Assembly: GCF_033193315.1 (NCBI RefSeq)
Contig: NZ_CP136187.1
Location: 2,046,001 to 2,110,000, forward strand
DNA from: Agathobaculum sp. NTUH-O15-33
GTDB taxonomy: Bacteria > Bacillota > Clostridia > Oscillospirales > Butyricicoccaceae
Direction of reading: 5' to 3'
Length of the DNA: 64,000 nt
Each line of letters begins with the position of its first letter. Position 1 is the stretch's first letter. The position numbers and the translations under genes are program-made. Of this stretch, positions 25,818 through 51,629 are shown piece after piece. The notes under the pieces were generated by a model. That model saw only the letters and a program-made list of their open reading frames with translations. It did no database searches and was not told where the DNA came from.

Positions 25818-26082
25818 CAGCGTGTCAAAGAACCCCTCGCGCCGCAGCGCGCATAAAATCGAATTTTGCCGCAAGTGGCAAAATTCATAAAAACCGGGAG
25901 CACGTATCTCGGTTTGCTCTCATTTAATCGCCGCACGGCGGCGGTCAGTGGATAGAGGCCTACGGGCTATACAAACCGACTTCAAGTGTGCCTGTAAGGC
26001 GCGCGCAGAAGCCGGAATGCTCGATCGAAATGGGGCTTTGTTTCGATCGACAGACTGTCAAAACTTGTTTTTTGACAGTCTG

Positions 26083-26122
26083 AGATGGCAGCAACCAGTT
26101 TTTATTCTGGTTGCTGCCATTA
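26083..26122. repeat. Terminator-hairpin direct repeat, right copy (element A)
   Basis: The stem at 26085-26098 pairs with 26107-26120. On the plus strand it is followed by TATTTTTGTC, so this copy keeps the T-tail of the presumed original terminator, 30 bases from the stop of the dehydrogenase gene. Confidence 0.85.
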
Positions 26123-26151
26123 TTTTTGTCACGATTTTCTTTCAGATCCGT

Positions 26152-27012
26152 TTATTCGCGGCGATAGTGCTCGATCAGCGCCTGTGTGCCTTCGTCTCCA
26201 TGGCCCTGCGCTTCAAGCTCCACGCACATTTCGCATACCGTGCGCAGAACGGGTAACGGAACGGTTGTTTGCGCCAGCGCAATATGCATGTCCTTGATAA
26301 AATGCTTCAGAAAAAATCCCGGGGCATTGTCGTGCGCCATCATTTTGGGCATCTGGTTGCTCATTTGCCAGCTTCCAGCAGCGCCTTGACTGATACTGTC
26401 CAGCATTTTTTGCGTGTTCAGCCCGGTCAGCTCGCCATATCGCAGCGCTTCACATACACCGGAGAGCGCGCCCGCGATCGCGATTTGGTTGGCCATTTTG
26501 GTGTGCTGCCCGCTGCCCGCCGGTCCCTCTAGGATTATGGTGTTCCCCATGGCCTGCAAAATGGGCAAACACACCTCAAAATCAGCCGCATCACCGCCGA
26601 CCATAATGGAAAGCGTACCATTTTTTGCTCCGGCGTCGCCGCCGGAAACCGGCGCGTCCAGCGCATGCAGACCACATGCGGCCGCCTGCTGCGCAATGCG
26701 CACGGACAGCCGCGGGTCTGTCGTCGTCATATCGATCAGATAGGTGCCGATATTCGCCGCCGCTAGGATGCCGTGATCGCCAAAATAAACCTGCTCCACA
26801 TCCTGCGGATAGCCGACCATGGTGATCACCGCATCGCGTCCGCGCGCGCAAGCAGCCGCAGTATCGCACCAATCGGCTCCGGTCTCTGCAAGGAATGCGG
26901 CGAGCTTATCCTTGCTGCGTGAATAAACCGATACCTCGTAGCCGTTGGCCAGCAGATTGCGTACCATATGCCGCCCCATCACGCCAACGCCGATAAACCC
27001 TATCTTTTTCAT
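26152..27012 (-). CDS. 3-hydroxyisobutyrate dehydrogenase family oxidoreductase
   Basis: This is an NAD(P)-dependent beta-hydroxyacid dehydrogenase of 286 residues. It has the N-terminal dinucleotide motif KKIGFIGVGVMGRHMVRNL, the substrate-loop APVSGGDAGAKNGTLSIMVGG and the catalytic Lys in GQHTKMANQ. Family members oxidise 3-hydroxyisobutyrate, tartronate semialdehyde, L-threonate or related short hydroxy acids. The ATG at 27012 is 8 bases after AAGGAG (a TTG two codons upstream is less suitable). It lies 31 bases after the next dehydrogenase gene in a two-gene operon behind a sigma-54 promoter. Confidence 0.92.
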   Translation of the reverse strand: MKKIGFIGVGVMGRHMVRNLLANGYEVSVYSRSKDKLAAFLAETGADWCDTAAACARGRDAVITMVGYPQDVEQVYFGDHGILAAANIGTYLIDMTTTDPRLSVRIAQQAAACGLHALDAPVSGGDAGAKNGTLSIMVGGDAADFEVCLPILQAMGNTIILEGPAGSGQHTKMANQIAIAGALSGVCEALRYGELTGLNTQKMLDSISQGAAGSWQMSNQMPKMMAHDNAPGFFLKHFIKDMHIALAQTTVPLPVLRTVCEMCVELEAQGHGDEGTQALIEHYRRE

Positions 27013-27043
27013 TATCAATGCTCCTTACTTGCCTTTATCCGTC

Positions 27044-27982
27044 TTATTCTTCAGGCATTTCCCAACAAAAGCATGCGTAATACGGCGCTGCTTTACGCCT
27101 GAGATAATCGGCGTCGTCCTTGCCGCCCCAATCATAAAGGCCGTGTCCCGCCGCACGCCCGGTCCCGCCTGTTGCAAGGCCTGTTGTAACGATTTGCTGC
27201 ACCTCCCGCGCGCCGCATAAATCAGGATACACGCACCGGGCAATATCACTCTCCATTTGGAACCCGACATCGTCAAAATACTCCAGCAGTCCGATCGACG
27301 CATATCGCATACCGACCGCGTATTTGACCGCCTTGTCCACATCTTCGGCCGATACGACTTCCTGCTCGATCAAGTAAAGCGCCTCGCGGAACAGGGCCTG
27401 CGCAAAACGATTGATAATAAAGCCCGGTACGCTTTTTTTGAGCACGACCACTTGACGATCCAGCGCTTCCAAAAATGTTTTCGCGCGCGCCATGATCTCC
27501 GGCGTTGTCTTGGGTCCGCCAACCAGTTCCACAAGCGGCAGCATATGCGCCGGCTGAAACGGATGTGTGACCACAAAACGCTCGGGATAGGTCATGTCCG
27601 CTGTTAATAGCTCCGTTGAGATCGCCGAAGTGGTGGATGCCATCAGGGTTCCCTGCGCAACGACCGCTTCTAATTGCCGGTATATCTCCTTTTTCACCGC
27701 TAGATCCTCGAACGCCGCTTCCAGCACAAAGACACAGTCCGACAGCGACGCCATATCCGTAGAAAAGGCGAAACGTTTCCAGATTGCGGCACAGTTTTTT
27801 TCTGTTGCAAGCCCCTGTTGTTTCATCTCGTCTAAATTGTCCTGTAATATCCGGCGGCAGCGGACAAGATCGTTTTCATCCAGCCCAATAATCGTCACCC
27901 AGCAGCCATGTCCCGCCATGAGGGTCGCCATACCCGCGCCGACACGTCCCGCGCCGACTACGCCAGTTTTGCAATGCATCAT
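27044..27982 (-). CDS. 3-hydroxyacyl-CoA dehydrogenase-family protein (L-gulonate/carnitine dehydrogenase-like)
   Basis: This is an NAD-dependent dehydrogenase of 312 residues. It has an N-terminal Rossmann motif GVVGAGRVGAGMATLMAGHG, VLEAAFEDLAVKKEIY, the catalytic His in THPFQPAHMLPLVELVGG, then GFIINRFAQALFREALYLI in the C-terminal dimer domain. The HPFxPxxLLPLVE form is characteristic of the branch acting on free 3-hydroxy acids (L-gulonate 3-dehydrogenase, L-carnitine dehydrogenase), not on CoA thioesters, so a hydroxy-acid substrate is likely (inference). AAAGGAG precedes the ATG at 27982. It is transcribed from a sigma-54 promoter about 65 bases upstream. Confidence 0.88.
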   Translation of the reverse strand: MMHCKTGVVGAGRVGAGMATLMAGHGCWVTIIGLDENDLVRCRRILQDNLDEMKQQGLATEKNCAAIWKRFAFSTDMASLSDCVFVLEAAFEDLAVKKEIYRQLEAVVAQGTLMASTTSAISTELLTADMTYPERFVVTHPFQPAHMLPLVELVGGPKTTPEIMARAKTFLEALDRQVVVLKKSVPGFIINRFAQALFREALYLIEQEVVSAEDVDKAVKYAVGMRYASIGLLEYFDDVGFQMESDIARCVYPDLCGAREVQQIVTTGLATGGTGRAAGHGLYDWGGKDDADYLRRKAAPYYACFCWEMPEE

Positions 27983-50466: not shown

Positions 50467-50474
50467 CGCATGCT

Positions 50475-51086
50475 TCAAACTCGCATCTGCCTTCTATATT
50501 GTCGCAGTCTGCGATAAAAAGTCGACTCGCTCATGCTGCACATGGAAAGCACATCGGAAATGCCAATTTGTTTCTTCTCCCAAGCGTATATGATCTTTTG
50601 GAAATCCTCTGGCGAGGATTTGGAGGGCCGGCCAAATCTTACGCCTCTGGCTTTTGCCGCCGCGATTCCTTCCGATTGGCGCTTTTTGATGTTTTCCCGC
50701 TCATTTTGCGCGGTGAAGGAAAGGATCTGTAAAACCAGATCGGCGATAAACGTTCCCATCAAATCCTTGCCGCGGCTAGTGTCCAGCAGGGGCATATCGA
50801 TTACGGATATATCTGCGCCGATATCTTTGGTCAAAATGCGCCACTGCTGCTGTATTTCTTCGTAATTCCGGCCCAGACGGTCGATACTCAATATGTAAAG
50901 CAGATCACCGGCCTTTATTTTACGCATCAGCTTTTTATATTGCGGACGGTCAAAATCCTTGCCGGACTGTTTATCCATGTAAATACACTGCTTTTCAACA
51001 CGTTTTTCCCGCATTGCAATCAGCTGCCTGTCCTCGTTTTGATCCATGCTCGATACGCGAATGTAGCCGTAAATATTCTTATACAT
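50475..51086 (-). CDS. Small serine recombinase (resolvase/invertase family)
   Basis: This 203-residue site-specific recombinase has the N-terminal catalytic domain with the nucleophile Ser in [16 protein letters not shown]. Arg-rich active-site segments follow ([20 protein letters not shown]), then the long helix ([24 protein letters not shown]). A C-terminal helix-turn-helix closes it ([22 protein letters not shown]). All key parts are intact, so it is probably active. There is no transposase or cargo gene alongside. It converges with the CapA gene and lies 288 bases from hairpin element B. Its target site is unknown. Confidence 0.93.
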
Positions 51087-51373
51087 TTATTTACCCTCTT
51101 CTTCCTTTTCCAAGATTGTTGGCTATATAAGCACCCATTACCATAATTATTATAAATCGATGCCTTCTCGTCAACTATTCTCTTATATGTGCAGCTACAT
51201 TTCTTTTATGCGCGGCAGTGATCCGCGCGAAGTATTTCGCATATTTTTATGTTTAAAACCCCGTATTATTCGCAAAACGCAAAAAACAGGGACGGTTTTC
51301 ACCATCCCTGCGCTTGTCCACCAAACTATTTGTTTTAAAAAATATTTTTCCCTTTAATAATTGAGCAACAACA
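51087..51373. other. Intergenic region upstream of the recombinase
   Basis: This AT-rich region holds the presumed recombinase promoter on the minus strand (TTGACG at 51169-51174 with TAATAA 16 bases downstream). It also has a minus-strand hairpin at about 51285-51312 (CAGGGATGG/CCGTCCCTG followed by TTTTTT), and short palindromes near 51210-51235 (GCGCGG/CCGCGC; GCGAAGTATTTCGC). The palindromes could be recombination or regulatory sites, but nothing proves that. Confidence 0.45.
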
Positions 51374-51404
51374 AGGCACGGGTTTCTTTGCAAAACCCGT
51401 GCCT
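51374..51404. repeat. Terminator-hairpin direct repeat, left copy (element B)
   Basis: A perfect 12-bp stem; on the minus strand the hairpin is followed by the T-rich TTGTTGTTG, so this copy retains the terminator tail used by the histidine kinase gene. Confidence 0.85.
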
Positions 51405-51629
51405 CAGCGTGTCGACAAAGTCGACATGCTGTCTAGGGGGTACCCAGTGCCCCCTAGATACTCGACCAGTTCCGGAGAAACCGGTCTCGATACCCCCGGA
51501 TTACGCGCCCGGTGGCGCGGGTCGAGGTGTTTTTTCGAGGTACACGCCCCCGAAAAACGGATTTTACGTCGCTTCGCTCCATTTCCCTTTCTATGCGCGC
51601 TGCGGCGAGAGACCTTTGGCTACAGTCTG

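Follow-up and report, generated by a model that had tools for sequence, protein, structure and literature searches.

The window analyzed here, a 64,000-nucleotide stretch of the genome of the gut bacterium Agathobaculum sp. NTUH-O15-33 (a single contig of 4,005,854 bp), contains two short elements, designated A and B, each flanked on both sides by a copy of a terminator hairpin (Table 1). The initial annotation had placed an identical 16-nt core on the plus strand in A and on the minus strand in B, and these are exactly the two perfect matches to the core in the window. It had also described the flanking hairpins as duplicated over 31–40 bases, and both duplications are present, exact over 40 nt at A and with 30 of 31 nt identical at B. 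Because the 'left' and 'right' ends of A and B form imperfect terminal inverted repeats (CAGCGTGTC.../CAGACTGTC...), they can be aligned in both orientations; by the position of the core, B runs opposite to A.

Table 1. Coordinates of elements A and B and their parts in the window.
Feature	Position	Strand	Remarks
Left terminator-hairpin copy, element A	25778..25817		Exact 40-nt direct repeat of 26083-26122; minus-strand terminator-like match
Element A body, MITE family A, 265 nt	25818..26082	+	Ends CAGCGTGTCAAAGAACCCC / CAGACTGTCAAAAAAC (reverse complement)
16-nt subterminal core, common to families A and B	25840..25855	+	Perfect match
Right-terminal hairpin of A, CAGACTGTC...GACAGTCTG	26051..26082	+	Two-sided changes at three column pairs across copies
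Right terminator-hairpin copy, element A	26083..26122		Followed by plus-strand T-tract
Left terminator-hairpin copy, element B	51374..51404		30/31 identical to 51630-51660
Element B body, MITE family B, 225 nt	51405..51629	-	Core end is the right side in + orientation
16-nt subterminal core in element B	51592..51607	-	Perfect match
Right terminator-hairpin copy, element B	51630..51660		31 nt, one mismatch to left copy

Genome-wide copies and the duplicated hairpin

Across the genome, 88 occurrences of the right end, GACAGTCTG, were counted, compared to 7 of a reversed control pattern; several of the 88 are located inside genes, and many are paired in one element. BLAST searches of the fetched loci with A and B, followed by chaining and de-duplication and with fragments included, yielded 58 MITE copies, full and partial, comprising 45 of family A and 13 of family B. 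This number is a lower bound, since loci that were fetched later held more (L278 and L279), and the hairpin duplication is present at these as well. The proposal that A and B form one family held insofar as they are one kind of mobile element, but the copies fall into two MITE-like families. Near-full copies of A are mostly 210–310 bp in length, with L053 and L051 being shorter.

Matching hairpin flanks on both sides were identified at 41 of the 58 copies (34 A and 7 B) with a boundary slack of 7 nt, compared to none of 232 shuffled controls in which left and right flanks from different copies were paired. The repeats range from 18 to 43 nt, most being 26 to 41 nt, and the hairpins are unrelated from site to site. 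An absence of flanking duplications among genome-wide copies had been named beforehand as the outcome that would count against the targeting and duplication of whole terminator hairpins; the tabulation of flanks instead speaks strongly in favor of both. No duplication above threshold was detected in 17 of the 58 copies, and these include truncated copies (e.g., L032, L135, and L126), a copy whose hairpin is disrupted by an indel (L132), and a copy in which the right hairpin was cut down (L147). L075, L108, and L074 are flanked by two different hairpins, and the left side of L111 has no hairpin.

The genome of Butyricicoccus faecihominis DFI.6.109 is mostly 97–99% identical to the window genome over long shared stretches, and two loci in these genomes form empty/filled pairs, with one hairpin at the empty site and two hairpins with an element between them at the filled site. 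In one pair, the window genome is empty and has one hairpin (L021), and B. faecihominis carries an A element with a 29-nt palindrome exactly repeated on its two sides (L179). In the other, B. faecihominis is empty and has one hairpin (L186), and the window genome carries an A element between two copies (L143), both of which are loop-inverted relative to L186, the left copy with further changes. Deletion of the target without duplication, as seen for IS1272, was not encountered in these two pairs, both of which exhibit a duplication.

At the empty site L021, the sequence CAGACTGTC is already present immediately after the hairpin. Element B was ruled out as an empty-site test since B. faecihominis carries B at the same place, where it is split over two contigs.

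The relationship between repeat and palindrome was evaluated in 35 clean cases, comprising 26 MITEs (direct repeats with both boundaries within 1 nt) and nine of 11 duplicated autonomous insertion sequences (ISs; described below), with L305 (N run), L306 (inverted loop), and all others being dropped. For each case, the empty site was rebuilt in silico by script and the best stem was located. When 12-nt flanks were included, the overhangs on the two sides were within 2 nt of each other in 34 of the 35 cases, and the stem extended past the repeat by a median of 1 nt at either end. Since the 12-nt search window is itself centered on the repeat, the analysis was redone with 60-nt flanks, whereupon the stem center fell ≤1 nt from the repeat center in 34 of 35 cases compared to 17 of 700 random placements. 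Repeat length was positively correlated with stem span (r = 0.65–0.66). The loop is inverted in one copy of at least five of 41 MITE pairs (L070, L139, L145, L127, and L128) and in one hairpin copy of the IS L306. These inversions, along with that between L186 and L143, are not predicted by plain gap repair.

IS1182-family relatives and the probable mobilizing enzyme

No match to an IS1182 transposase profile (NCBIfam) was detected in the window genome at E ≤ 0.001, so that any activity in this genome must lie in the past or have been supplied in trans. IS1634-type elements are known for long variable duplications; an IS1634-type partner was rejected, with no match to NCBIfam profiles in the window genome at E ≤ 0.001.

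Viral contigs were scanned for the right end, and among the 80 of 88 stretches that were screened, three featured a flank repeat (L223, L189, and L250). L223 comprises a MITE-sized element with identical hairpins on either side, and L189 has similar, weaker repeats. In L250, from a viral contig, the same hairpin recurs 1.5 kb upstream, and between exact 25-bp hairpins lies an intact IS of 1502 bp. Its transposase (471 aa) scores 410 bits to NF033551 (cut-off 270), placing it in the IS1182 family, and matches the Pfam domains DDE_Tnp_1_6, DUF772, and DDE_Tnp_1. A search for an autonomous transposase with matching ends had been called for in the initial annotation, and L250 answers it with ends and insertion behavior like those of A: the ends of A are identical to those of L250 at 17 of 19 positions on the left (CAGCGTGTCAAAGAACCCC in A and CAGACTGTCAAAGAACCCC in L250) and at 15 of 15 on the right (CAGACTGTCAAAAAA in both). 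The ends of family B resemble another IS1182 subgroup (L332-type), with the core end of B, CAGACTGTAGCCAAAG, matching CAGACTGTAGACAAAG of L332 at 15 of 16 positions.

B. faecihominis encodes a piece of an IS1182 transposase (91.7 bits, below cut-off, profile positions 394–488) that starts at a contig edge and is 53% identical to L250 across 110 aligned residues. Its end, CAGACTGTCAAAGAACC, is of the same kind as those of A and L250. The piece adjoins a hairpin that is the same in sequence as one that the window genome carries next to an A element; the match stops about 20 nt past the hairpin, so the two sites need not be the same locus. The other side of this IS was searched for in B. faecihominis and not found. 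Judging from these sequence comparisons, it is very probable that the elements are mobilized by a DDE transposase of the IS1182 family.

An IS1182 match at 1e-40 was identified in 42 of 394 genomes of the order, 29 of them over the cut-off. We examined 42 loci (30 from the order-wide search, 3 viral, and 9 plasmid) and counted 22 as relatives, defined by a transposase ≥47% identical to L250 and by recognition of both ends. Loci were left uncounted when there was no tblastn hit (nine: L310, L311, L313, L314, L316, L318-L320, and L322), when they were cut off or fragmentary (five: L315, L317, L321, L329, and L330), when the ends were not found (L336), or when they were more distantly related (five: L294, L304, L308, L309, and L312). 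A whole hairpin is duplicated at 15 of the 22 autonomous relatives, with repeats of 22–39 nt (22 nt at L337); among these, the duplication at L306 is inverted and that at L335 is a perfect palindrome. A different hairpin is present on each side in the other seven (L292, L293, L296, L300, L301, L332, and L334), an arrangement that simple insertion does not produce and that requires either transposition within one molecule or recombination between copies. Two different hairpins also adjoin L294 (39% identity to L250). The most distant loci (L304, L308, L309, and L312; 29–31% identity) have GCTGTTGACAAA ends, at which no whole-hairpin duplication was detected. The flanks of L304 are clearly the two arms of one palindrome, and those of L308 and L309 look similar, an outcome that recalls the result for IS1272.

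Mechanism, alternative explanations, and known systems

Being short, present in many copies, devoid of a transposase gene, and sharing an insertion signature with autonomous ISs, A and B have the properties of MITEs. We consider it highly likely, with a probability of roughly 0.9, that they are non-autonomous MITEs mobilized in trans by IS1182-family DDE transposases and that gap repair duplicates the hairpin. The sequences directly document the copy number, the duplications and their symmetry about the center of the palindrome, the empty and filled sites, and the existence of autonomous IS1182 elements that share the ends and the insertion behavior. Besides mobilization in trans and the positions of strand transfer, we infer two steps: the transposase would recognize an extruded hairpin or cruciform rather than a palindromic duplex, and the single-stranded gaps left by insertion would be repaired such that the whole hairpin is copied. 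As gap repair would copy the whole hairpin, the 'target site duplication' would be the hairpin itself, with a length that follows the palindrome and is not fixed. We lean slightly toward a broader proposal, in which a large IS1182-type clade may read DNA shape rather than sequence, acting on the extruded hairpin or cruciform and cutting both strands at the feet of the stem, with duplication length set by the palindrome and not by the enzyme. If so, inverted loops would be scars of hairpin processing, and such elements could come to occupy terminators throughout a genome (here at 41 or more sites) with one terminator kept per direction, and could join the 3' ends of neighboring transcripts.

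The clustering of most repeats between 26 and 41 nt might be taken to indicate a fixed-length staggered cut in duplex DNA, with terminators merely being preferred targets. This is unlikely, however, given that repeats vary from 22 nt (L337) up to 43 nt in a manner that tracks stem span, and that they are centered on the palindrome in nearly every clean case. It is less likely still that the hairpin was replaced, as in IS1272, and that the two flanking hairpins are pre-existing terminators or were later regained. IS1272 is a member of the same family that deletes the hairpin wholly or partly without duplicating it, and both the unlike hairpins flanking seven of 22 relatives and some MITEs and the palindrome arms on either side of distant relatives such as L304 are compatible with replacement. 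Yet L021 and L186 each have one hairpin where the filled strain has two near-identical copies, and the same hairpin occurs on both sides in 41 of the 58 MITEs as well as in 15 of the 22 ISs. Replacement is thus already contradicted for most copies.

The initial annotation had also raised the possibility of a structured RNA locus, whereby the body would be an RNA or regulatory locus that arose or was kept beside terminators and the duplicated hairpins would be a functional part of it. The body is a long hairpin array, and RNAalifold applied to 33 of 41 near-full distinct copies of A (eight were dropped by hand with no fixed rule: L111, L073, L074, L098, L008, L053, L146, and L051) predicted 59 pairs, 16 of which have at least one pair-keeping two-sided change, including three in the terminal hairpin. 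These paired changes show that the palindromes are kept and not that they act as RNA; correction of palindromes at the DNA level would look alike, and template switches that correct palindromes can also give paired changes in DNA. Against an RNA locus, no Rfam family (Rfam 15) matched at gathering score in the window, with matches around A being weak and sub-threshold only. Moreover, presence differs between closely related strains, flanks are unrelated from site to site, and the ends match those of autonomous ISs. We regard an RNA locus as the most improbable of these alternatives, and MITEs mobilized by IS1182-family transposases as the preferred explanation.

A review cited by both IS1272 papers describes some members of the IS1182 family as targeting palindromes (PMC5678879, PMC4923244). 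IS1272 and TnSha1 of staphylococci target hairpins without a sequence consensus, several of which are confirmed terminators (PMC5678879, PMC4923244), and IS1272 removes the hairpin fully or partly without duplicating it (Wan et al., 2017, PMC5678879; Furi et al., 2016, PMC4923244). Whole-hairpin duplication is drawn only as a hypothetical 'pathway b' (Fig 13; Wan et al., 2017, PMC5678879), to which the duplication observed here corresponds. The family and its preference for palindromes and terminators are known already, but in the described case the hairpin is removed. A and B are not a new element class; rather than the undescribed MITE class suggested by the initial annotation, they are MITEs of a subgroup of the IS1182 family (NCBIfam NF033551), to which the transposase of the matching autonomous element belongs, although the MITEs themselves have no transposase. 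They resemble IS1272 and TnSha1 in family and in hairpin targets and differ in that the hairpin is kept and duplicated.

Other systems share part of this behavior. REP-targeting ISs and RAYT/REPIN also involve palindromes as targets or mobile units, and we know of no whole-palindrome duplication in either. RAYT is a Y1 enzyme, whereas the transposase here is a DDE enzyme. Group IIC introns are retroelements that insert at terminators, to our knowledge without target duplication. In the open-access literature searched, nothing bearing on whole-hairpin duplication in MITEs or ISs was found outside the IS1272 papers. ISfinder gives variable direct repeats over a wide range of lengths for the IS1182 family, such that its curators may have seen whole-hairpin duplication. 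Whole-hairpin duplication is apparently a little-described behavior of a known IS family. Duplication length is usually held to be a fixed property of the transposase, whereas in these elements it varies with the hairpin that is targeted. Structure-dependent transposition, a model that has been sketched and otherwise supported by argument from IS1272, the variant that deletes its target, thereby becomes directly testable with natural elements.

Termination at the duplicated hairpins and distribution of the elements

The idea that each side of an element keeps a functional hairpin was only partly upheld. On the strand in the orientation of the element, 5 or more of the 8 nt that follow the stem are T in 4 of 41 left copies and 24 of 41 right copies; on the opposite strand, the same threshold was reached in 29 of 41 left copies and 0 of 41 right copies. 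Insertion leaves the outer sequences in place, and each hairpin copy therefore retains a U-tract in just one direction. The copy that a transcript meets first is mostly without a U-tract, which is more often retained by the far copy. Transcripts from either side would thus often cross the element and end only at the second hairpin, and termination would be displaced past the element. The results also suggest why such elements can attain many copies at little cost, and how new terminators and new 3' untranslated sequence might arise. For annotators, a duplicated hairpin provides a signature for locating such elements.

The exact terminal hairpin was not detected in 98 other relatives that were searched, which indicates that the family is patchy. 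A scan of named genomes returned 41 stretches, most from B. faecihominis and the remainder from a few other Clostridia, with L176 and L183 being exceptions that look chance-like by eye. Two viral contigs have the hairpin: L112 is without the duplicated-hairpin layout and L113 has it.

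Related elements with different bodies or flanks

Elements with related ends and different bodies were observed at L113, a viral contig, and in other Clostridia (L160, L168, L178, and L188). As judged by eye, the hairpin is clearly duplicated in L113, L178, and L188 and is diverged in L160, and no duplicated hairpin was seen in L168. More distant IS1182 relatives with GCTGTTGACAAA ends are flanked by the two arms of one palindrome and not by two whole hairpins; comparison of flanks shows this arrangement clearly at L304 and more weakly at L308 and L309. Such split-palindrome flanks are perhaps an outcome of the type described for IS1272, which replaces the hairpin without duplicating it, in another subgroup.

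Hairpins and sequences at element boundaries

Derivatives without a body, comprising only a hairpin and the retained ends of the element, were identified at L049, L281, L054, and L289; those at L049 and L281 have a different terminator on each side. Boundary hairpins at L144 and in the right flank of L108 resemble constructs of the element's own left end, CTCGCGCCGCAGCGCGAG, and are possibly element-derived terminators. At L144, this hairpin itself served as the duplicated target.

The sequence CAGACTGTC is already present immediately after the hairpin at the empty target site L021 of the window genome, and similar sequences follow the right-hand hairpin copy at L140 and L117. These sequences may be either old remnants or a component of target preference.

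Neighboring features and further insertions

Coordinates of features within or near elements or target hairpins
Feature	Location	Position
Serine-recombinase-like ORF	window, adjoins element B	50475-51086
Hybrid histidine kinase-like ORF (1305 aa)	window, adjoins element B	51674-55591
CAGACTGTC	L021	1500-1508
Insert of ~165 bp	L148	~6420-6584
Insertion of ~187 bp	L155	~843-1029

In B. faecihominis, an A element (L148) is interrupted by an insert with a GTCATCCTGAGCGAAGCGAAGGATCT repeat that is missing from the window genome counterpart, L058. Another insertion in B. faecihominis (L155), close to the A element of L061, is likewise missing from the window genome.
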